From assembly GCA_022575985.1 (NCBI GenBank), contig JAKSXM010000014.1, positions 26,908,001 to 26,972,000 on the forward strand: a stretch of 64,000 nucleotides of DNA, written 5' to 3'. How positions within the stretch are numbered: the first letter of the stretch is position 1; each line of letters begins with the position of its first letter. The notes under the pieces were generated by a model. It saw nothing but the letters and a program-made list of their open reading frames with translations, did no database searches and had not been told where the DNA came from. Below are positions 2,296 to 62,228 of this stretch, in pieces. The translations under genes were made by a program, and so were the position numbers. This DNA comes from Anagrus nilaparvatae. Its lineage: Eukaryota > Arthropoda > Insecta > Hymenoptera > Mymaridae.

Positions 2296-3800
2296 CTATG
2301 GTTCCTCATTAACAATAACAAAATGTTCTTAATGGTCTATTTTATCTAATAAAAATGATAATTCTAGATATTAGTACTTTCATGGGAAAAAATTAAATAC
2401 TACGGGCCAAAAGAAAAAAGATATTGCTATTTTTTTAATTTTTTTATGTAAACAATTTTTAGAAAAAAATTTAAAAAAAATTAAGTATCAATTGGAGATA
2501 TAGAGTAAAAACGATAATTCTACATATAAGTACTTTCATAGGAAAAAATTAGGTACTACGTCCAAATAGAAAAAAAATAATGCCGTTTCTTTAATTTTTT
2601 TATGCAAAAAATTTTGAGAGAAAAATTTTCAAAAAATTAAGTTTCAGTACCAAAATATTGACTAAAAAGTATACTTCTAAAACTAGTACTCCCACAGAAA
2701 AAAATGAGGTACTACTTTCAAAAAGCAAAAAAATATTGCTGTTTTTTTTATTTTTTTATGCAAAAAGTTTTGAGAAAAAAAAGTTCAAAAAATTAAGTGT
2801 CAGATTGGAGATATCGAGTTATAACGATATTTTCAGATATTGGCACTTTCATAAGCAAAAATTAGGTACTATATCCAAATAGAAAAAAAATATCGCAGTT
2901 TTTTTTATTTTTATTTTTTTTAAATGTTGAGAACAAAAATTTTGAAAAAATTAAGTATCAGGTCCAAAAAATTACTATAAACGATATTTCTAAAACTAGT
3001 ACTTCCACAGAAATAAATTAAGTACTGCGTCCGTAAAGAAAAAAAAAATTGGTATTTTTTATATTTTTTTGTGAAAAAAATTTTGAGACAAAAATTTTCA
3101 AAAATAAATTATAAGATTCGAGATATCGAGTAAAAACGATACTTCTAGATATCAGTACTTTCATGGAAAAAAATGAGGTACTACATCCAAAAAGAAAAAA
3201 AAATATAGTGTTTTTTTAATTTTTTTATGTAAAAAGTTTTAAAAAAAAAAATTTCGAAAAATTACGTATCAGATGGAGAAATCCTTTATAAAAGATAATT
3301 TTAGATATTCGTACTTTCAAAGGAAAAAATTAAGTATTACGTCCTAAAATAAAAAAAATTTTGGCGTTTTTTGTATTTTTTGGCGACAAAAATTTTGAGA
3401 AAAAAATTTTGAAAAAATTAAGTATCAGGTCCAAAAAAATGCTATAAACGATATTTCTAAAACTAGTACTTCCACAGAAATAAATTAAGTACTGCGTCCG
3501 TAAAGAAAAAAAAAATTGGTATTTTTTGTATTTTTTGGTGAAAAAAATTTTGGGAAAAAAATTTTCAAAAAATTAAGTATCAGATTCGAAATATCGAGTA
3601 AAAACCATACTTTCAAATATAAGTACTTTCGTGGAAATAAATGAGGTATTACATCCAAATTAAAAAAAAAAAAAAGTACCTCGAGCTTTTTTGGTGAAAA
3701 AAATTTTGAAAAAAAAATTTTGAAAAAAAAATTAGGTCTTAATGTCGTGTTGGCTGTGAAATATCACCGGTTACAGTGCGACATATATACATACATACAT

Positions 3801-9200: not shown

Positions 9201-10480
9201 AATTTACATATAGTGGCAGTCACACGGTATAAAACCTGAATTATAAAAAAATAACTGATTATTTGTAATTTATTCTCGCGTCACCTTTTTGATATATAAT
9301 AAAGTATATGTACCAAATATATATATAATAGAATAAAGTTGCGCTCTGATTTCCACGTTTTTCTCATCGAATCAAAATAAAAAAAGAAAGACGTCGGTTT
9401 CAATCGACGAAATTCATCGCACGCGAATTGATGGAAATATACTTTTTTATACTTCTATATTAAGTATATAATATATATTTTCTCTCAATATAGAAAATCT
9501 TTTGAAAAAATTTTCTATTTTAAATATATATAAGTCAATTAATAAATGAAACGCCTACACTCACGCTAACTTTGGATAAATTTTCTATCATTGACTTGTA
9601 TATATTAATAAAATAAATATACGGATATGTATATTTATTAGAGGTTGAATGGAAAAAATGTATTAGGTATATATTTCAAAATATTAGCATAATATACACG
9701 TGATATATATATTAAAGTGTATGCGAAAGCACATCGAATGCATCTTACACGCGCTCTTGATTTTCCAGTATAATATCGGTATACGTACAATAATGTCAGT
9801 TATAAACCATCATGACCTGACCCCGAATAAAAAACTATATCTTCATTAGATTTATTTTATTTTAAGTCATACTAATATTTATGTACGTTAGCCTGGCATA
9901 TACTACCACCTTGGATTCCTGGTTTCTTAGAATCAATGGTTTGGAACCAAAAATCTCTGTGATTTTCTAAATTCAACACGTGACTTCTGGCCCCTTAATT
10001 TATTTTCATGAATATGTTTTATTATTAAAAAATTAAATTTCCGTAACCTTAAGTGAGCACCAGCTAGGATTTTACTAAGGGGCAATTATACTTTAAATAC
10101 GCCCCACGGGGAGGGAAGAAATAGGACTTAAAATAATTTCGATTTAGGGACTAAGGCCCATTGCAATAAACAGAGGAAGTCGGAGATGATTTTTCAACAT
10201 ATAAAAGTCATCCATAATTATAGATTTTAATTTGGTTCCCCAAAGGTAGCGGCCTTCCCTTGTAAGTTGGAAATGAGGGATATGTCAGTAGAATGGTGTC
10301 TAAAGCTTCTCTTTTAAAATTTCAACCAGCTCGTTCTCCATCAAAATAAGCATTGGTTTCACTCACTGATTTCACCTTTTGTGGATAAATCAGGCAGGAG
10401 GGTTAAATTTTAGGTCCATAAGTACGAAATTCCAAAATAAAAACATATTGAAATCAAATTCGCAGAATTACTATGTAAAA

Positions 10481-11436
10481 AAAATGTTAGAACTACTCAT
10501 ACTTAAAAAATTACCTTAATTGATCTTTTATTAAACAAACAACGCAATTTAATGTAAATAATAGTACAAACCAAACAATAATTTTTAATAAATTGCAAAA
10601 AATAAGAGTAAAGATAAATTTATTACAAAAAATAAAAGTTCATAATAAATATTTTAGTTTAAAAGATTTATAAAAATATTATTATGATATATTTTACATT
10701 GATTATACATAATAAACCATAATATTAAATATAAATAATATTGATAAAGTGTTATTATATTTCTTAAAACATATTTTATTATATTATAGGTATACCATAT
10801 TATTAAAAATAAAATTTTTCAAAAATTATAAATGTTACATGACATTGAATCTTTAAAAGATCACTTATATAAATTAAACTTTCTGTAAATATAGGTAATC
10901 TTTATATATATATTTTTTTACAATTGCTTTGTAAAATCAAGCGATAATTCATTCGAATGTCCACGATGCACCAATTATCTTTTTTTACCTTTTGTGTATT
11001 GTATTTACGAAAGCTTATTACTTTAGAAAATAAACAATCTCAATTCACCTACTTTTTTAAAAATATATATAAAAGTACAATATATTTTATTTAATGTGTA
11101 TTTTTAGAATTGGATAGATTTGGAATAGTTTAACACTTGATATTACAGTTTTTGATAGTTAAAGAATCTCTTATTTTATAATTTTAGTAATTTTTCGATT
11201 ACTTGATATCTTGAAGAAAAATAATGTTCATTGTCCTGAGAAAAGCCCCATACGTTAATGAGTGGGATTAATTTTGATTCCCATTTTACAACTAGATGGC
11301 GTAAACTTAGCTCTTAAATGAAATGCCTTTTATATAGTATATAAGGCACAAAATTCTTCGTTAAATTTAAATCATGAATAATATTATAGCCTTTCTGTTT
11401 TTTAAAGTAATAAGTTATCATTTATTTTCGTATATG
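10481..11436. repeat. Direct duplication, copy 1 (about 950 bp)
   Basis: This segment is nearly identical to 17551-18479, with a few substitutions and small indels (for example, about 20 nt near 10830 are missing from copy 2). It starts next to an A-run and ends in a candidate promoter plus signal-peptide-like first exon (TATA-like TATATAAGGC at about 11337, ATG at 11374). The copies lie about 7 kb apart. The intervening DNA (a cellular-type gene and a foldback element) does not look like the interior of an LTR element, and the repeat lacks TG...CA ends, so I read this as a segmental duplication. Confidence 0.9.
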
Positions 11437-13125: not shown

Positions 13126-13232
13126 GGTTCCTTGAACCATTGTGTTAGGTCAAAATTTGATTTTCTATTTTTTGGCATATAAGCACGTTTTGGGACCCCA
13201 GGAAGCTAAAAAACCTGTTTTTAAAAAAAGTC

Positions 13233-13277
<45 letters not shown>

Positions 13278-16200
13278 ATACGTATGTATGTAATCGGTGA
13301 TATTTCACAAATATTATGGAATTAAGACCTAATTTTTTTTTCAAAAATTTTTTCACCAAAAAAGCTTTAGGTACTTTTTTTTTTTGATTTGGATGTAATA
13401 CCTCATTTATTTCCATGAAACTACTTATATTTGAAAGTATGGTTTTTACATGATATCTCGAATCGGATACTTAATTTTCTGAAAATTTTTTTTCTAAAAT
13501 TTTTTTCACAAAAAAATACAAAAAATACCAATTTTTTTTTTCTTTTTGGACTTAGTACCTAATTTATTTTCATGGAAGTACTAGTTTTAAGAACCTTGTT
13601 TATTGTAATTTTTTGGATCTGATACTTAATTTTTTCAACATTTTTTTTGTCAAAATTAAAAAAAAAGAAAAATAAAAAAAACTGCAATATATTTTTTTTT
13701 TTTGGTGTAATACCTCATTTAATTCTATGAAAGTACTAATACCTGAAAATATTGTAACTAGTGATATTTCAAAACCATTATCGAATTAAGACCTAATTTT
13801 TTTTCCAAACATTTTTTTATCAAAAAATCTCAAACCCCCCCTTTTTTTTTTTATTTTGGATGTAATACCTCATTTATTTCCATGAAAGTACTTATACTTG
13901 AAAGTATGGTTTTTACTTGATATCTCCAATCTGATACTTAATTTTTTGAAAATTTTTTTCCTAAAATTTTTTTCACAAAACAATACAAAAAATACGAACC
14001 TTTTTTTTCTTTTTGGCCGTAGTACCTAATTTATTTCCATGGAAGTACTAGTTTTAAGAACCTCGTTTACAGTAATTTTTTGGAATTGATACTTAATTTT
14101 TTCAAAATTTTTATTCTCTAAATTAAAAAAAAAGAAAAATAAAAAAAATTGCAATATTTTTTTGGTGTAATACCTCTTTTAATTCTATGAAAGTACTAAT
14201 ATTTTAAAATATTGTAACCAGTGATATTCCAAAACAATTATCGAACGAATACCTAACTTTTTTTTCCAAAAATTTTTTTATTTAAAAAATCTCAAAATAC
14301 TTTTTTTTTTTTTAATTTGGATGTAATACCTCATTCATTTCCATGAAAGTACTTATACTTGAAAGTATGGTTATTACTCGATATCTTGAATCTGATACTT
14401 AATTTTTTGAAAATTTTTTTCTTCAAAATCTTCGTTACAAAAAAATACATAAAACACCAAATTTATTTTTCGTTTTGGACATATCTAATTTATTTTAATG
14501 AGAGTACAAGTTTTAGAAATTTAGTTTATAGTAATTTTTTGTATCCGATCACAATTTTTTTTTTTATTTTGATATAAATTATAACACACAAGAAAGAGTG
14601 ATGGAAATCTTGCCTCTTTTTGACTTCCCCGGATTATTTTGTTCGTTGCTATGTTTATTTATGTATGCAGCTTAATGAAATTATAAACAATAATAAACAG
14701 CCTAAAAATATTAAATGGTTATGTTTGCATTTTAAAATTAAGATTTAAAAGTTATATTGGCATTTTTTAAAGAATCAAACAATTTAAAAATCTTGAAGCA
14801 ATTAATGTGGCTATTTTTTTTATTACAAAATATTATTATTATTATTATTATCATTGTTGTGGAAGATTGGTCAAATGCAAGAAGTACCTTGAGAAAATAA
14901 ATTATAAGAAATTATTATAAATTCTGGTAAAAACTCCTATCTTTTTATAATAATTGAGCACTATGTTTCGTTTTCTAGTAGAAAATCGCGAATATTTGTA
15001 ATTTTCGCATCGTTGCCAACCATTTCTTTGACAAAACAAAAAAATCATGTTACTCAATATTTTAATTATTAAGGGATAAAAATTTTTGAAATAATAACAG
15101 CCTTTACGAGCAAATTTTATTAAGGGATAATTATATATTCTAATAAAATTTTACAAAAAAATAATAAAATTAGCTTTTTTTATATTTATCTCTTTTTAAT
15201 TATGCAAAAATGATTTAAAATCCATTAACGCCGGCGCGATCAATACATGGACGCTAGAATTTTTACTTTAATAACAAAATGATCTTAATGGTCCATAAAA
15301 GAAAAATGTATGTATAATTGCATGGTTGTAATCAATAATATTTATTGCGTATTGAAGTTTAAAGAACAAACAATGGACTGTAATCTTAATTTACAACAAA
15401 TATTATTAATTACAACCATGCAATTATACATACATTTTTCGTTTTTAGTAGCTGGTAAAGTAGATTTTTAAGATCATTTTGTTATTAAAGTGAAAATTCT
15501 AGCGTCCATGGATTGGTCGCGCCGGCGCTAATGGATTTTAAATCATTTTTGCATAATTAAAAAGAGACAAATATAAAAAAAGCTAATTTTATTTTTTTTT
15601 ATAATATTTTATTTTATTAGAATATATAAATATCCCTTAATAATTAAAATATTGGGTAACATGATTTTTTTGTTTTGTCAAAGAAATGGTTGGCAACGAT
15701 GCGAAAATTACAAATATTCGCTCAATTATTATAAAAAGATAGGAGTTTTTACCAGAATTTATAATAATTTCTTATAATTTATTTTCTCAGTGTACTTCTT
15801 GCATTTCAAGATTTTAACATTATTTATATTATTTCTATTAATCACAAAATAATAAATTATTTAATTCTATAAATTGTTTGATTCTTTAAAAAATGCCAAT
15901 ATAACTTTTAAATCTTAATTTTAAAATGCAAACATAACCATTTAATATTTTTAGGCTGTTTATTATTTTTTATAAGTTCATTAAGCTGCATACATAAATA
16001 AACATAGCAACGAACAAAATAATCCGGGGAAGTCAAAAAGAGGCAAGATTTCCATCACTCTTTCTTGTGTGTTATAATTTATATCAAAATAAAAAAAAAA
16101 ATTGTGATCGGATACAAAAAATTACTATAAACTAAATTTCTAAAACTTGTACTCTCATTAAAATAAATTAGATATGTCCAAAACGAAAAATAAATTTGGT

Positions 16201-17389
16201 GTTTTATGTATTTTTTTGTGACGAAGATTTTGGAGAAAAAAAATTTCAAAAAATTAATTATCAGATTCAAGATATCGAGTAAAAATCATAATTTCAAGTA
16301 TAAGTACTTTCATGGAAATGAATGAGGTATTACATCCAAATTAAAAAAAAAAAAGTATTTTGAGATTTTTTTAATAAACAAATTTTTGGAAAAAAAAGTT
16401 AGGTATTAATTCGATAATTGTTTTGAAATATCACTGGTTACAATATTTTAAAATATTAGTACTTTCATAGAATTAAATGAGGTATTACACCAAAAAAAAA
16501 AAATAAATATTGCAATTTTTTTATTATTCTTTTTTTTTAATTTTGAGAAAAAAATTTTGAAAAAATTCAGTATCAGTTCCGAAAAATTACTGTAAACGAG
16601 GTTCTTAAAACTAGTACTTCCGTGGAAATAAATTAGGTACTACGTCCAAAAAGAAAAAAAAGTTTCGTATTTTTTGTATTTTTTTGTGAAAAAAATTTTA
16701 GGAAAAAAATTTTCAAAAAATTAAGTATCAGATTGGAGATATCAAGTAAAAACCATACTTTCAAATATAAGTACTTTCATGGAAATAAATAAGGTATTAC
16801 AGCCAAATTAAAAAAAAAAAAGGGGGTTTGAGATTTTTTTAATAAAAAAATTTTTGGAAAAAAAATTAGCTCTTAATTCGATAATGGTTTTGAAATATCA
16901 CTAGTTACAATATTTTCAGATATTAGTACTTTCATAGAATTAAATGAGGTATTACACCAAAAAAAAAAAAAAATATTGCAGTTGTTTTTATTTTTCTTTT
17001 TTTTTAATCTTGAGAAAAAAATTTTGAAAAAACTAAGTATCAGATCCAAAAAATTACTATAAACGAGGTTCTTAAAACTAGTACTTCCATGGAAACAAAT
17101 TAGGTACTTCGTCCAAAAAGAAAAAAAAAATTGGTATTTTTTGTATTTTTTTGTGAAAAAAATTTTAGAAAAAAAATTTTCAGAAAATTAAGTATCCGAT
17201 TCAAAATATCATGTGAAAACCATACTTTCAATTATATTAAGTACTTTCGTGGAAATAAATGAGGTGTTACATCCAAATTAAAAAAAAAAAAAAGTACCTC
17301 GAGCTTTTTTGGTGAAAAAATGTTTGAAAAAAAAATTAGGTCTTAATTCCATAATGTTTGTGAAATATCACCGATTACATACATACGTA

Positions 17390-17435
<46 letters not shown>

Positions 17436-17548
17436 GACTTTTTTTAAAAACCGGTTTTTTAGCTTCCTGAGGTCCCAAAACGTGCTTATATGCCAAAAAA
17501 TAGAAAATCAAATTTTGACCTAACACAATGGTTCCTCTTTGAGGAACC
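13126..17548. mobile_element. 4.4-kb near-palindromic foldback element with 156-bp satellite arms
   Basis: The two halves are reverse complements around a centre near 15370; for example, 15301-15332 matches 15409-15440 exactly, and the stretch beginning near 14580 matches that ending near 16077. From the outside inwards, each arm has a terminal GGTTCC...GGAACC motif, a (TG)n/(AC)n microsatellite (13237-13275 and about 17393-17431), eight or nine ~156-bp tandem units, and a unique inner segment of about 750 bp. There is no transposase ORF, so it is non-autonomous. Long inverted arms with internal tandem repeats are the hallmark of foldback/Galileo-type elements; whether it belongs to that superfamily is inference. 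Clear target-site duplications are not visible because the flanks are A/T homopolymers. Confidence 0.88.
13310..14570. repeat. 156-bp tandem array, left arm, three-unit higher-order pattern
   Basis: Landmarks (TACCTCATTTATTTCCATG type) recur at about 13400, 13556, 13710, 13864, 14020, 14170, 14325 and 14485. By sequence the units fall into three kinds (CATTTATTTCCATGAAA, TAATTTATTTCCATGGAA and CATTTAATTCTATGAAA) in the order a-b-c-a-b-c-a-b, giving a repeat of about 465 bp. The right arm (about 16080-17300) carries the mirror image. Confidence 0.8.
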
Positions 17549-17550
17549 AA

Positions 17551-18479
17551 AAAATTTTAGAACTAATCATACTTAAAAAATTACCTTAATTGATCTTTTA
17601 TTAAACAAACAACGAAATTTAATGTAAATAACAGTTAAAACCAAACAATAATTTTTAATAAATTGCAAAAAAAAAAAAAAATAAGAGTAAAGATAAATTT
17701 ATTACAAAAAATAAAAGTTCATAATAAATATTTTAGTTTAAAAGATTTATAAAAATATTATTATGATATATTTTACATTGATTATACAAACCATAATATT
17801 AAATATAAATAATATTGATAAAGTGTTATTATATTTCTTAAAACATATTTTATTATATTATAGGTATACCATATTGTTAAAAATAAAATTTTGACATTGA
17901 ATCTTTAAAAGATCACTTATATATATTAAACTTTCTGTAAATATAGGTAATCTTTATTTTTTTACAATTGCTTCGTAAAATCAAGCGATAATTCATTCGA
18001 ATGTCCACGATGCACCAATTATCTTTTTTTACCTTTTGTGTATTGTATTTACGAAAGCTTATTACTTTAGAAAATAAACAATCTCAATTCACCTACTTTT
18101 TTAAAAATATATATAAAAGTACAATATATTTTATTTAATGTGTATTTTTAGAATTGAATAGATTTGGAATAGTTTAACACTTGATATTACAGTTTCTGAT
18201 AGTTAAAGAATCTCTTATTTTATAATTTTAGTAATTTTTCGATTACTTGATATCTTGAAGAAAAATAATGTTCATTGTCCTGAGAAAAGCCCCATACGTT
18301 AATGAGTGGGATTAATTTTGATTCACATTTTACAACTAGATGGCGTAAACTTCGCTCTTAAATGAAATGATTTTTATATAGTATATAAGGCACAAAATTC
18401 TTCATTAAATTTAAATCATGAATAATATTATAACCTTTCTGTTTTTTAAAGTAATAAGTTATCATTTATTTTCGTATAT
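17551..18479. repeat. Direct duplication, copy 2
   Basis: This is the second copy of 10481-11436 in the same orientation. Its left edge directly abuts the terminal GAGGAACC of the foldback element. Its right edge is within a base or so of the candidate exon/intron junction at 18480/18481. In copy 1 the sequence diverges at that same point. Confidence 0.9.
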
Positions 18480-23435: not shown

Positions 23436-23464
23436 TTTTTGTTTTATACAAAAATTATTATTAA

Positions 23465-23539
23465 TGGGTATCTACGAAAAGGCTAAATAGTGTACGTACT
23501 GACGAGCCTCACACTATTTAGCCAGAGGCGAAATATCCA
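23465..23539 (+). ncRNA. Type III hammerhead ribozyme, copy 1
   Basis: Helix III: TGGGTAT (23465-23471) pairs with ATATCCA (23533-23539), with one G-U. The cleavage triplet is AUC, and cleavage is predicted after C23472. Helix I: TACG (23473-23476) pairs with CGTA (23495-23498). The core CTGACGA is at 23499-23505. Helix II: GCCTC (23506-23510) pairs with GAGGC (23525-23529), with the usual G-C first pair. GAAA at 23530-23533 completes the core. All invariant hammerhead positions are present. Loop I (23477-23494) and loop II (23511-23524) share a 13-nt perfect complementarity. Confidence 0.88.
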
Positions 23540-23583
23540 AACAATTGTTAGCTCAATTTATCGAATAAAATTATTCAGATTTA

Positions 23584-23994
23584 ATATACAAATGAGCGAA
23601 AAAATACAATTATTATTAATGGCATTTGATTGAAATATGCTGTAAATATTCATACTTGGTGTTCCAGTCCAATGTGAAAAAAACTGTATATAATTCTTAG
23701 AAAGCGAGTCTTTCGTTTATATGATTTTGGTTTAATTGGTACTAGGTTCATATAAAAAGTGTGTTTAAATTCATCTAATTCAACTAAGATGTTTTTTTTA
23801 AAAATAGAAATTTTATAAAATATATATATTTTTCAAGGTTTAAAATGATAGTACAATAAGCAGATGTAACAAAAAATTTTTTTTAGTAGTGGGGGTTTTT
23901 AGATTTCCTTTCGTTTATAGTAGTCTAACGCGTGATTTCATCGAAGTAAGTTCTTACATTTTTATATATTTTATTATTTTAAAAAATTTTTTGA
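23584..23994 (+). other. Unique interior of the retrozyme-like element
   Basis: These 411 bp lie between the two hammerhead repeats, with no ORF of note and no family match. A stretch at about 23605-23622 (ACAATTATTATTAATGG) resembles the sequence just 5' of the ribozyme (AAAATTATTATTAATGGG), possibly a trace of an older repeat junction. A Pol III box pair cannot be made out convincingly. Confidence 0.6.
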
Positions 23995-24023
23995 TTTTTG
24001 TTTTATACAAAAATTATTATTAA

Positions 24024-24098
24024 TGGGTATCTACGAAAAGGCTAAATAGTGTACGTACTGACGAGCCTCACACTATTTAGCCAGAGGCGAAATATCCA
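24024..24098 (+). ncRNA. Type III hammerhead ribozyme, copy 2
   Basis: Base-for-base the same as copy 1, displaced by 559 bp: helix III 24024-24030 with 24092-24098, cleavage predicted after 24031, core CTGACGA at 24058-24064, helix II 24065-24069 with 24084-24088, and GAAA at 24089-24092. Paired cleavage at copies 1 and 2 would release a 559-nt RNA. Confidence 0.88.
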
Positions 24099-25389
24099 AA
24101 CAATTGTTAGCTCAATTTATCGAATAAAATTATTCAGATTTATTACTTTTAATTTTTAATATTTACTATAGGCGTAACCCCTTTAGATAGAAATGTAATA
24201 AAATTGGTTTATTTAATTAAAATTAAAATTGCAATTTAAGAAATATAGATAAACAAATGATGATTAGGAATTTATATATGAGGAATTCCAAGCCAAGTGG
24301 GTCCTAGTTAAATTAGAAGCTTATGGAATTTGTTGAAAGTCCAAATAAAAGTAACTCCTGGCAATAATTGTTAGTTTTCTGGGTAGAATTCTTCCTCAAA
24401 ATTTACCTCAAAAGTACATATAATTTATTAACAATTTATACTACGACCCAAAGAATCATTTTTATCACTTACAACCAAAAAATATATCCCATAAGTAAAA
24501 GAACAAAAAATATATTTAAAAAACAGAAAAATTACGTAAAACTTTAATTACATTTATAAATTTTGTAATAATTAATTAGAATTAAAAAATTTTTTTAATT
24601 ATTTAATTTTACTTGATTAAATTTACATACTATTAAAATTTCATAATTTATTCATTGTAGGTTAGTATAGTAGGTATATATAACTTATATCTATATTAAA
24701 TTATTAGGTGTCAATAATAACTATATTAAAATAATTATAGGTTATTATTATTGAAAGTAATTTAACTTCTTTTTTTTTATAATATTCATGAGACTTTTTA
24801 GTACTACTATGTATGATACGTAATGTGAAACACTTTTTTTATTTTTTTAAATTTTAATTATCTTTATATTTATCTTGTAGATTATCTTTATTAATCAAAG
24901 AATTTAATAATATTTTTTTTGTATATATGGGGTTTTTCATCTAGACATGGAGATGTGGTAAATTTTAATTGAATTTCGGAGAGAAATATCAGGATTTAGT
25001 TCAGGACAAATTATCTCCAAGTAAAAATTTTTATCAGTCAAAAAATGCAAATGATTCAATAATTTACATACAGAATAAGCATTGGCATTTACCCAGAAAA
25101 TTTTTTCGGAGGGGGAGAACAAATTTCGGGGTAGGTCAGAACCTAGCAATATTAATATTTTCATAACTGTTTCTTATTTTACATTTTTTAGAAGTAGTAT
25201 TTCATAACAATTAAAAAATTTTGAACTTAGGGCAAAAATCATGCTTTTTTACCAAAAAAATTTATTGGAGGGGTCATGCCTTCTCTGCCCCCCACTTGAT
25301 ATAAACTAGAGATACCGTAAGATAGGTTTACAGAAGGGATGGGGGCGATTGCTCTCTTTTCCACCCACTGGATGCACCACTGTATCTTT

Positions 25390-35705: not shown

Positions 35706-36889
35706 TTAATACAATTGGTCATCAAACAAAAAAGATTTTCAGTGTATAATCGATAGTAATTAATTTTATACCGGCCAATCAGAAGGCGAGTAAAAAGTAG
35801 ATTAGAAGCAACTTCAGATCTGCATCAATTTTCTATAAAGGGAAATAAAGGGATAGACTGTGCAAATAAAGTATAAGACGAACTTGTTCTGCAATCAAAA
35901 ATTTAGAAATAACATTGTAACTGAGGAATTCACAAATCAATTTTTCAGTAAGCTCTATAACCAATAACTTCAACTTCAAAATTATTTTTTAAACACAAAT
36001 CACCATTTTTTTTATATTAACTGGACCAACCCATATAAAAAATAGCAATACAAAATAAAAACATTATGAAATAAAACAATCAAAAACCCCTGAAGCTTTT
36101 GATTTAGTTACACAAAAGTTTTAAAGATAACTGTTTAAAACAATAGTTAACTATAAATATTTTTTATTAAAAAACAACACAACAAAAAAACAAAACTGCT
36201 CTTCTTATTTATAACATTAAACAAATACATATTACAAAAGCCTTGCTATATAAAGAAATAATATAATATCAAAAAAACGTGATGATTTCATTTTTTTCGA
36301 AAAATAAAAAAAATAAATAGTTACTTTATTAAATTTTTCTTATATTTTTTTTCAAAGTCAATGAAGACTTTTGTTATTATGTAGTTTATAACTTGTTATA
36401 TTATACAATCAGGGTAAGAAAATAAGAGCTTATTATAAACGTTAAAAAAAAAAAATTTATATATCTTTATTTTAGATAATACAGTCATAAAGTGTATTAT
36501 ACAGCATAGACTGTGCTCTTTTCTATTGATAAAATACTAATCGATTATTATTATATGTTGTGTGTACACTGCGACACTATAATACACGTTTGAAAATTTA
36601 TTTTTCTATTTAAAATGTCGAAAAATATCAACAAAGATATAATGAACTTTTCATTGTTTTTACTTGGTAATATTTATACCAGGATGTAATAATAGTCCTA
36701 TTTTTTATATTTAGAAATATTTCTATTCAATGGGCTTAATACTATAGCCTCAAGTAATTATCTCTTGAAAGAGACAGTTCTTTGGAGCTTCTTTTGTTCG
36801 AAATACGTAAATTAACCTATATTATTGCACTACATTTATTTATTTGACTTACGTATATAGTATTATATTTTAAAATTCCTTTTAATGCT

Positions 36890-36985
36890 AAATGGAGTAA
36901 AACTGACGAGCTTCACACTATTTACTTAGAGGAGAAATAGCCAAATTTTTAAGTAATATATCGAATAAATTATTCATATTTTTAT
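36890..36985 (+). ncRNA. Decayed hammerhead-repeat relic
   Basis: CTGACGAGCTTCACACTATTTAC...GAGGAGAAATAGCC and the following ATATCGAATAAATTATTCATATTT align with the retrozyme repeat. The core CTGACGA (36903-36909) and GAAA are kept. The first pair of helix II is G-A instead of G-C, the helix I region is shortened, and the cleavage-site strand (GGGTATC) is missing. It should be inactive. It shows that the family is older than the intact copy. Confidence 0.65.
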
Positions 36986-38603
36986 AGAAACCCATGTTTT
37001 TAGGGTATTGTAAGATAAATTTTATGTGCAGCAATAGGGTACCAATTATTGGTCCACATATCACAGCATAAATAACAGCCGGGTTCAAAACCATTCTAGC
37101 AAAACAAAATTTTAAGGGTATCATTTTTTTAGTAAAATTTATATTTCATAAATCTCGAAAAAAATTTCCAGGCTAATGCACTATAAAAACTACCGTTAGA
37201 AAAATATTTATTTAACAAACAATAAAAACCATTCAATGAAATATATGTAGGTCATAGTTTAAATACCTTCTTACCTCGTTTTTTACCTGTGTAACAAAGA
37301 ATTTTTTTTTTATTTTATAACTTTATTAATAAAGTGAAAGAATTTATCAATATTTACGTTATAAAATAATATTTTCTAAAGGTTATCCATCCTTATGTTG
37401 CTTTTTTAATATTTTATTTAGCAAAATATTAAAAACCTATACATTTTTCTGAATTTGAAATTCTACTGAACTAACTTGCAAGCTTAAGTGTATCAAAATT
37501 TTTAGAATTTTTGAAAATAAGTTGAATATTAAAAATTAAAAAAAATGATAAAGCTGGATAAAATTAATAAGAATTTTCATTAGCTTTATGAGAGTTGTAG
37601 GGAAACCCACTATAAAGATAAAGATATAAGATACATTTAAAAGTCCGAATTTTTCACGTTTATTTACTTTTAGAATTAATGGTGTACCAAAAAGTTTAGG
37701 CTCTTTCAGATCAGATAGGATGGAAACAAGTTTTTAGTAAAGCCCAAAATTTTTCGAAAGAGACCTGCAGGTGTAGTCAAAATCGAAAATTTGGTTAAAA
37801 GTCCAAAAAACTCTAGCAAACCCTAAATTTTGGGTAATAACATAAATTTATTTAGAATTCAATCCAAAGATAAATGAAAACATTGGCTAAATTATTCAGC
37901 CATCTTGCTTGGACCAAGGAATTTGAAATTCTAAAAATTTACATTTTGCAACAAGTCTAGTTATTTCATAAAATTTTGTACTTTTAAAGTTATACACACT
38001 ATTAAAGTAAATACAAATTGGCGTAAAAAGTAATACCAAATAAAAATAAGATATAAAGTGATAAATTGAAACTAATTTTAAATGTCACATTTAAAATGGA
38101 TGATTATTTAATATTTAAAAAATATAATGCGAATAAATATAATACGAGGTATTTTAAAAGAATAATATTGCGTGAAATTATGTGAATTGAATAGAACTCT
38201 ATATAGTACGAAAGAACAGGTGGAGCCGGAACAAGTTAAAAGCATGGCAAAATGATATGGCAAGGTATATATAAGACATAACGGATGCAAAATATTATAA
38301 GAATATGTATACCAACTGCATATGAGTGTAAACCTGTAAGATGTCCTCAGGATAAATATATACTCTTTGTTCTTTACTTTTTTTTATGAATAAAACATTT
38401 TCGTTAGCGTATCTTGATTTACATATAAATATATGTGAAAATATTATAGCGTATTTTTATATTATATAATATTTTTTTTATTTTTATATTTAGAAAAATT
38501 ATTATTGATCAAAATTTTTATTGTCCAAAATATTGGGCTAGCCATTGTGGTATGTATGCAATTGTCAGGGCAGATTCTAAAATTACACCGAAAAAAGATA
38601 TGG

Positions 38604-43499: not shown

Positions 43500-44345
43500 T
43501 ATAACCGGTTTGTGTAACTACACAACCAACGAGCATGGAACATGTTCGTTTATAACATTGATAATAAAGTATCTATTGTGTTCATAATATAAATATTTAT
43601 ATGCAAATATTAATATTTAGATTTTTATTATAGAAATCATGCTGCTTAGACATCAAAATGAACCAAATTAATTAAATTTTCAAATTATTATAGTTTTTTA
43701 TATAATATGAAGTTATTTTTTATTAATTTTTACAATGAATTCTTAAAAATTTTGCACCAATGGTCCCTAGGTACTTCTGCACCAACACTCCCTAGGTACT
43801 TCTGCACCAAAGGTCTTTAGGGACTTCTGCACCAACACTCCCTAGGTACTTCTGCACCAAAGTTCTTTAGGGACTTCTGCACCAATGCTTCCTAGGTAAT
43901 TCTGCACCAATAGTCCCTAGGTACTTCTGCACCAAAGGTCTTTAAGGACTTCTGCACTAATGCTCCCTAGGTACTTCTGCACCAAAGGTCTTTAGGGACT
44001 TCTGCACCAAAGGTCTTTAGGGACTTCTGCACCATAGGTCCCTAGGTACTTCTGCACCAATGCTCCCTAGGTACTTCTGCACCAAAGGTTCCTAGGTACT
44101 TCTGCACCAAAGGTCTTTAGGGACTTCTGCACCGAAGGTTCCTAGGTACTTCTGCACCAAAGGTCTTTAGGGACTTCTGCACCAATAGTCCCTAGATACT
44201 TCTGCACCAAAAGTCCCTGAATCAAAAATATTCTAAGTCCATTTCACCCCCCCCCCCCCTAAGAACGTCAATTTTTCACCCCCCCCCTGCCGTGCCGGAC
44301 TTTTTCAAATACCCCATCCAATGAACATGTTCCATGTTAATAATG
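43500..44345. repeat. CATGTTCC-family element carrying a minisatellite
   Basis: The left end (ACCGGTTTGTG...CGAGCATGGAACATGTTCG) and the right end (CAATGAACATGTTCCATG) match the dispersed family. Between them lie the 25-bp array and two C-runs of nine or more bases (about 44248 and 44278). Confidence 0.65.
43752..44218. repeat. 25-bp minisatellite, about 19 copies
   Basis: The unit is ACTTCTGCACCAA plus a 12-bp variable part. The two main variants, ending CCCTAGGT and CTTTAGGG, are interspersed along the array, with minor point variants. The purine/pyrimidine pattern is non-coding. Confidence 0.9.
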
Positions 44346-61497: not shown

Positions 61498-62228
61498 TTA
61501 TTCAATAATTTCTTGTATCACTGGATCATAACATGGTGGTAGATTTTTTATACCTTGCATTTTATTGAGTGCTTTATGTCCTTCTATTTTTATAAATGCC
61601 ATTTCAGCTACATTTCTTTTTTTTCAATTATGTTCTTTATGTAGTATTTGTATATTTTTCCAATCTATATCACGTTGTTCTGCGAGCACAGGATTTTTTA
61701 ATATGCGTAATCACATTATAATATTTTTCCTTACAATTTTTGTTTTTTCGATGTTTTTCATGCCTTGTTTTTACTAACCATTGAGTCTGGCCTACATAAA
61801 TTTTATCACAATTTTTACAATTAATTTTATAAACTGAATCTGTGCTATTTTCTGTTTTTAAAGGATCTTTCTGTAATTTAATTACCCTGTTCAGTTTGCA
61901 AGGATACTTATAAATTGGTTTTAATTGATATTTCTTATATACTATACTAGATAATTGATCTGAAAAATGCTTTATATGTGTTAAAGTAAAAACTTAGTTA
62001 AAATCAAATGTGTTATTGTTATTAGAACTTATTGTTGCTGTATTAAATTTTCTTTTCTGATTATTTATATGTTTTTCAATAAAGTGACTAGGATTATTGT
62101 TTAATATTAATTCATCGTGAATTGTATGTAGATTCCTACTATGAAATTCTTTATCTGTAAGGTGAGAACTTTATTAGCCAAACTTTTTACTATACTCTTT
62201 TCTACACCAGTCAGGTGGTTTACATAAA
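61498..62228 (-). pseudogene. 5'-truncated Penelope-like retroelement with GIY-YIG remnant
   Basis: Read on the minus strand from about 62228 to 61498, successive frames give the C-terminal part of a Penelope-type polyprotein. First comes NHLTGVEKSIVKSLANKVLT, then the next frame gives LTDKEFHSRNLHTIHDELIL...FIEKHINNQKR. A third frame reads KDPLKTENSTDSVYKINC and continues KNCDKIYVGQTQWLVKTRHEKH (GIY-YIG endonuclease: the Y-x-I-x-C, C and YVGQT motifs and the downstream R/H are visible). A fourth gives DIDWKNIQILHKEHN, an in-frame TGA, and VAEMAFIK...QEIIE-stop at 61498. At least three frame changes and one stop show it is dead. The reverse-transcriptase core is missing, as expected for 5' truncation. 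Intact elements use reverse transcriptase plus GIY-YIG endonuclease for target-primed insertion. No hammerhead was found with it. Confidence 0.85.

Follow-up and report, generated by a model that had tools for sequence, protein, structure and literature searches.

The window copy and its hammerheads

The window, a stretch of 64,000 nucleotides, contains on its forward strand a 707-bp element (23436-24142) with a GC content of 25%, which is bounded by two 148-bp direct repeats. The first repeat (23436-23583, forward strand) reads as a pseudo-LTR of Penelope type. The second repeat (23995-24142, forward strand) is identical to it: there is no mismatch, the offset is 559 bp, and identity ends at the repeat borders. 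An earlier note on this DNA had described paired, identical 148-bp repeats lying 559 bp apart, and direct comparison bears this out. The element corresponds to 1.26 units of 559 bp. Unit positions are numbered here as u1-559 (23584-24142), so that the predicted hammerhead cut falls at u448/449 and the window copy runs from u412 through one complete unit to u559. No stop-to-stop frame of at least 75 amino acids overlaps 23436-24142 and the element is thus non-coding, lacking the reverse transcriptase and GIY-YIG frame by which a Penelope-like element (PLE) is recognised. The window also carries two BTB/POZ genes (PF00651; 57159-58448 and 62697-63998) that are 78% similar along some 800 bp and represent a local duplication; protein searches with their products gave no relatives.

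Each repeat holds a complete type III hammerhead, at 23465-23539 (predicted cut after 23472) and at 24024-24098 (predicted cut after 24031), both on the forward strand. The motif consists of a helix I of 4 bp, the core CUGACGA, a helix II of 5 bp, GAAA, the triplet AUC and an open helix III of seven pairs, one of them G.U, so that the core, the three helices and the triplet assigned in the earlier note are all present. A full type III descriptor, applied to both strands of the window, recovers these two motifs and no others, and gives 0 matches in 200 dinucleotide-shuffled windows; a chance hammerhead was rejected for this reason. The covariance check proposed in the earlier note supports the motif weakly (Rfam RF00008, 26.1 bits, E 0.0045 in a 1-kb scan), but this score lies under the gathering score of 48.5, and a scan of the whole window at the gathering threshold gave no match. 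The low score is explained by the length of both hammerhead loops. No match was obtained when viral and prokaryotic collections were scanned for the exact pattern.

The two loops share a feature that is missing from the earlier note. Loop 1 (18 nt) holds GGCUAAAUAGUGU and loop 2 (14 nt) holds its perfect 13-nt reverse complement; the loop-1 and loop-2 arms lie at 23481-23493 and 23511-23523 in the first hammerhead, and at 24040-24052 and 24070-24082 in the second, all on the forward strand. Among 100,000 composition shuffles none reaches 13 complementary bases and one reaches 12. When folded without pseudoknot terms, the open hammerhead has an energy of -11.1 kcal/mol, compared to -24.3 for the minimum-energy fold. 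In the tested nascent and longer RNAs that include both arms, the 13-bp hairpin is paired with a probability of about 0.99. Loop-loop contacts of five and six pairs are among the described examples (PMC3088659, in part), and the HDV-like agent, termite and dipteran hammerheads presented in the consulted part of PMC7936874 resemble the present motif in being of type III, in their pseudoknotted loops 1 and 2 and in their association with insects. However, those motifs show a four-base GCCR/YGGC contact and an extra helix I hairpin, whereas here the complementarity extends over 13 nt. It is geometrically doubtful, by reasoning, that 13 loop-loop pairs could form while helices I and II stay closed, and this doubt, taken together with the 13 complementary bases, leads us to read the complement as a lock or switch. 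The complement is predicted to fold the ribozyme mostly shut, in which case cleavage would probably be partial or protein-assisted. No covariation was found for the 13-nt lock, since decayed copies break pairs without compensation, and its evolutionary support is limited to its perfection in recent copies.

Copies of the element and their ends

The genome searched comprises 393 contigs with 488,676,385 bases in total. When the 707-bp element was used as the query, 78 matches were obtained in the best 39 of 436 candidate places. The hammerhead 27-mer (up to three mismatches) occurs in 174 + 156 = 330 places genome-wide (control 0) and the 24-mer of the 3' end (up to two mismatches) in 102 + 70 places (control 1), counts that take array units singly, so that there are fewer insertions than places. 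In the 39 loci, 72 of the 76 complete hammerheads are identical and 15 further matches are partial. Substitutions are rarer in the hammerhead than in the unit centre (u38-411), with 9 of 6470 cells against 133 cells and an odds ratio of 0.25, although the cells are not independent. Tandem arrays also occur: one locus (L032) holds 10 full units, and another (C161:1639557-1648577) at least 17 units with a period of about 557 bp. The retrozyme-like, non-coding repeat with paired type III hammerheads that the earlier note had proposed is a family with copies genome-wide and a period of 557-559 bp. A decayed partial copy in the window itself (about 36884-36990, forward strand) matches 23479-23592; it begins 6 nt past the hammerhead cut and reaches approximately the common 3' end. 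The same note had assigned the DNA to an arthropod-type genome, in agreement with its many TTAGG arrays: exact TTAGG 25-mers number 1884 and one array opens contig C19, TTAGG being the arthropod-type telomere repeat. Two pairs of loci (L107/L108 and L091/L109) lie on different contigs and share their flanks, each pair being one insertion seen twice; they read as alternative haplotype contigs or segmental duplication.

The ends of copies were analysed in 39 loci (L001, L031-L068), which are the best-scoring ones and hence biased to long copies, short copies being missing from the set; the counts exclude three stray matches (L046, L047, L060). These loci comprise 27 single-orientation and 12 head-to-head insertions. 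The single copies end 3' at u555-559 in 26 cases and at u33 in one. Each head-to-head locus (12 of 12) combines an outer 3' end at u555-559 with one at u32-37, the two sites being spaced by 32-41 nt. No poly-A or simple 3' tail is present among the ends of the 39 loci. In the window copy, the first putative start site of reverse transcription (u555-559) corresponds to 23579-23583 in the first repeat and to 24138-24142, the 3' end of the copy, in the second. The stretch at 23584-23620, ending at the putative start site 2 (u32-37), would be an optional tail comparable to that described for PLEs in the consulted parts of PMC3846280 and PMC11167929; all these positions are on the forward strand. 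Within this tail, at start site 2, lies a 15-nt copy (23608-23622) of the hammerhead leader (AATTATTATTAATGG, 23453-23467), which may perhaps be a feature recognised by the reverse transcriptase.

Flank matches of 8-16 nt, with sliding allowed and microhomology included, were found in 12 of 12 head-to-head loci, compared to 6% of 132 mispaired flanks that reach 7 nt. Six of the 27 single copies have flank matches of at least 7 nt (4% of 702 mispaired flanks), and the other 21, the window copy among them, have none of this length. No convincing target-site duplication was found at the window copy, whose longest flank match is 6 nt, no better than many mispaired flanks.

The 5' ends show two concentrations. 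Among 32 hand-compiled ends in u373-472, 11 are no more than 4 nt away from the hammerhead cut (2.9 expected, P 7e-5) and seven fall at u412-415 (1.3 expected, P 2e-4); when any window is scanned, the P values are 0.003 and 0.017, respectively. In this set, L084, L086 and L091 were placed by eye rather than at the BLAST start and L098, L099, L106 and L111 were rounded by eye. The unclear L085, L087, L096, L097, L102-L104, L110, L112 and L113 were omitted, and L108 and L109 were dropped because of the flanks they share with L107 and L091. When one fixed ungapped rule was used to re-derive the ends of L082-L113 and the unclear rows were kept, 11 of 42 ends lie near the cut (P 0.001) and six at u412-415 (P 0.006). 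In the 39-locus subset alone, the same rule places 5 of 16 ends near the cut (P 0.01) and 2 of 16 at u412-415 (P 0.13). To judge from the sequences of the copies, the peak at the cut reads as hammerhead-cut templates and that at u412-415 as a transcription start. Part of the copies seem to derive from linear RNAs that begin at the hammerhead cut or close to it, or else near the putative start, and the same ends are an indirect sign of self-cleavage in part of the RNAs. The putative start zone (u412-415) lies at 23436-23439 in the first repeat and at 23995-23998 in the second, both on the forward strand and both placed by the pile-up of 5' ends. A TATATAT (u380-386; 23963-23969, forward strand), 28-34 bp upstream of u414, could be a TATA box, but it is a weak candidate given the AT-rich DNA and another TATATAT at u238.

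Probable Penelope-type copying and alternative explanations

PLEs have been described with pseudo-LTRs (pLTRs) and an adjacent inverted pLTR; their target-site duplications measure 8-10 bp, and one of the inverted pLTRs may carry a tail of 31 bp (PMC3846280, in part). The protein of the anole PLE cleaves and extends both strands and initiates within the RNA at two adjacent sites, the tail being the stretch between the two initiation sites (PMC11167929). The 3' ends and head-to-head pairs of the present family match this published signature point by point: two 3' ends, head-to-head insertions with one tail, and short target duplications are all found.

A 107-codon open frame on the reverse strand of the window (61673-61993), outside the element, is a remnant of a Penelope-type GIY-YIG domain (PF01541, E 7e-4, 20.3 bits, cut-off 22.6) and is evidence of a possible helper family. 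It has matches in 150 of 150 scored places (of 2193 candidates), with open frames of up to 890 amino acids. PLEs are very numerous in this genome; tandem Penelope elements with a period of about 3.4 kb and open frames of more than 800 amino acids lie, for example, at C144:54010-61027 and C95:32823224-32826976. In one PLE family, the 3' ends of four copies fall at either of two sites (two copies each) separated by 36-39 nt; in another, two copies have one common end site. A resemblance between the retrozyme tail and PLE tails, striking by eye, was rejected, since 659 of 1000 and 46 of 1000 shuffles reach it in two families. Rfam gives no hammerheads in 13 PLE regions; a strict scan detected one hammerhead core in a PLE (L072), and another (L071) was recognised by eye, "minimal type I" being a reading by eye.

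The explanation that we favour, with a probability of roughly three in four, is that the element is a non-autonomous type III retrozyme copied by Penelope-type machinery, with a putative helper, predicted cleavage and presumed transcription. The RNA would begin 35 nt before the hammerhead cut, at about u414, and would span at least one 559-nt unit; the type III hammerhead would cleave a fraction of these RNAs, as the 5' ends of copies suggest. A PLE reverse transcriptase/endonuclease would bind the region directly downstream of the hammerhead and cleave AT-rich DNA on both strands, at positions separated by a few bases. Copying would then initiate inside the RNA at u555-559 or u32-37, where the copies end. 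If both DNA ends were used, two head-to-head cDNAs would be formed; otherwise, a single 5'-truncated copy would result. The loop-loop complement, by holding most hammerheads shut, would make cleavage partial or dependent on protein assistance.

The window copy reads as a near-full-length cDNA that runs from the putative start site through the whole unit to initiation site 1, and its 148-bp repeat would be the stretch between the start site and site 1, passed twice along the RNA. As such, it reads as explicable without an LTR step and without a circle, although circles are possible. The extent of the decayed copy at 36884-36990 agrees with what the Penelope model predicts for a short cDNA. Several points count against this model: minimum-energy folding disfavours the active hammerhead, and no PLE with the retrozyme's own ends, nor any convincing sequence shared with the retrozyme, was found in 13 PLE 3' regions. 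The tail resembles PLE tails no more than shuffles do, the concentrations of 5' ends are weaker under the fixed rule, most single copies (21 of 27) have flank matches below 7 nt, and the 39 loci are biased to long copies. A more specific version, which we regard as rather doubtful, is that the 13-base complement keeps the type III hammerhead shut until the Penelope protein or co-transcriptional folding opens it, so that one RNA acts as a template when uncut and as a product once cut. If this were true, the 5' ends of copies would be genomic footprints of in-vivo hammerhead cutting, and the unlike 3' end pairs would represent Penelope dimer halves initiating at different sites.

The most serious alternative, tentative but able to coexist with Penelope-type copying, is a circular-RNA retrozyme, in which the 559-nt monomer is released, a host ligase closes it, and reverse transcriptase runs round the circle to yield 1.26-mers and arrays. 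A circularised 559-nt RNA is possible, and both the published retrozyme model (PMC7229834, in part) and the arrays of L032 (10 units) and C161 (at least 17 units) agree with it. However, 5' ends enriched at the cut and at u412-415 are expected from linear templates and not from circles, and the same variants found in two neighbouring unit pairs of L032 could also be made by unequal exchange. Folding of the 559-nt circle revealed no conspicuously stable rod: its energy is barely lower than that of shuffled sequences, of which 13 in 100 are equally low (z -1.16). LINE or SINE-type machinery in the place of a PLE is unlikely: target-primed elements share 5' truncation and target duplications with the present copies, but the 39 loci are devoid of poly-A or simple tails, and the two internal start sites with unlike paired ends in 12 of 12 cases are the published PLE signature.

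The remaining alternatives are much less probable. Movement of a plant-like LTR retrozyme by Ty3-gypsy enzymes would account for direct repeats with paired type III hammerheads, which plant LTR retrozymes indeed possess, and the earlier note had called the element LTR-style. However, plant elements have LTRs of 300-400 bp, 4-bp target-site duplications, a primer-binding site, a polypurine tract and a GC content above 55% (PMC4918200, in part), whereas the present repeats have 148 bp and 25% GC, and inspection of the window element by eye revealed neither of the two priming motifs. Flank duplications, where clear, exceed 4 bp, and fixed 3' ends, variable 5' ends and head-to-head pairs are of Penelope type, so that an LTR-type retrozyme was rejected as very improbable on its target-site duplications and copy ends, the window copy offering no convincing duplication in its favour. 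Slightly less credible still is plain satellite DNA spread by recombination with the hammerhead as a passenger. Although 557-559-bp arrays are present, this explanation was rejected because of the dispersed copies, fixed 3' ends and flank duplications, and the lower substitution of the hammerhead relative to the unit centre, in cells that are not independent, also speaks against it.

Relation to known systems and other repeats in the window

Metazoan non-LTR retrozymes (Cervera and de la Peña 2020, PMC7229834, as far as its consulted part shows) share with the present family a non-coding nature, low GC content, tandem or dimeric hammerheads and the absence of LTR features. They carry type I hammerheads in units of about 170-400 nt, whereas here the hammerhead is of type III and the unit of 559 nt. 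PLEs are regarded as strong helper candidates for metazoan retrozymes from shared features and co-occurrence (PMC7229834, PMC7761336, both in part); in the present family, unlike in that account, the copy ends directly indicate PLE-type insertion. PLEs themselves resemble the family in that their copies are tandem or partial-tandem, with arms inverted head to head and an optional tail of 30-40 nt, and insert into AT-rich targets with target duplications (PMC3846280, PMC11167929, in the parts consulted), but they carry a minimal type I hammerhead (PMC7761336, in part), while the present element has type III and no reverse transcriptase or endonuclease frame.

The family bears on the question of which enzymes move animal retrozymes. 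Here the PLE signature lies on the insertion ends themselves, in many copies of one genome, and the idea of a PLE helper thereby becomes accessible to a test with a single purified PLE protein and an RNA of 700 nt. The family also links a hammerhead of plant type with mobile DNA of animals. That all 12 of 12 double insertions have one end with a tail and one without says something concrete about how PLE-type integration may proceed.

The pDo500 satellite of Dolichopoda has, going by its name, a repeat of about 500 bp. It resembles the present family, by description alone, in that a hammerhead is contained in an insect repeat (PMC2837043, PMC2808323, in part). The earlier note had considered a long-helix-III, LTR-style retrozyme outside plants as notable, but type III hammerheads have already been reported in insects, namely termites and dipterans, in the consulted part of PMC7936874. 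The termite motifs are isolated, whereas here they belong to a mobile repeat family; the dipteran motifs, given there as "in preparation", could overlap with this family. No report of a type III retrozyme with PLE-type ends was found among open-licence PMC papers. As far as the open-licence literature shows, what is new is a type III retrozyme family with PLE-type insertion ends in an arthropod-like genome, together with the 12 of 12 rule of unlike ends and the 13-base loop-loop complement.

The window holds other repeats. Two inverted 1.8-kb arms (13134-14959 and 15720-17534), which are 93% alike, consist of tandem repeats of about 155 bp, and a third array related to them occupies 2343-3672. 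In direct orientation, 10479-11435 and 17549-18479 show 94% similarity. The arms with their flanking repeats look like a fold-back-type element. A 25-bp minisatellite of about 18.6 copies is found at 43753-44218.
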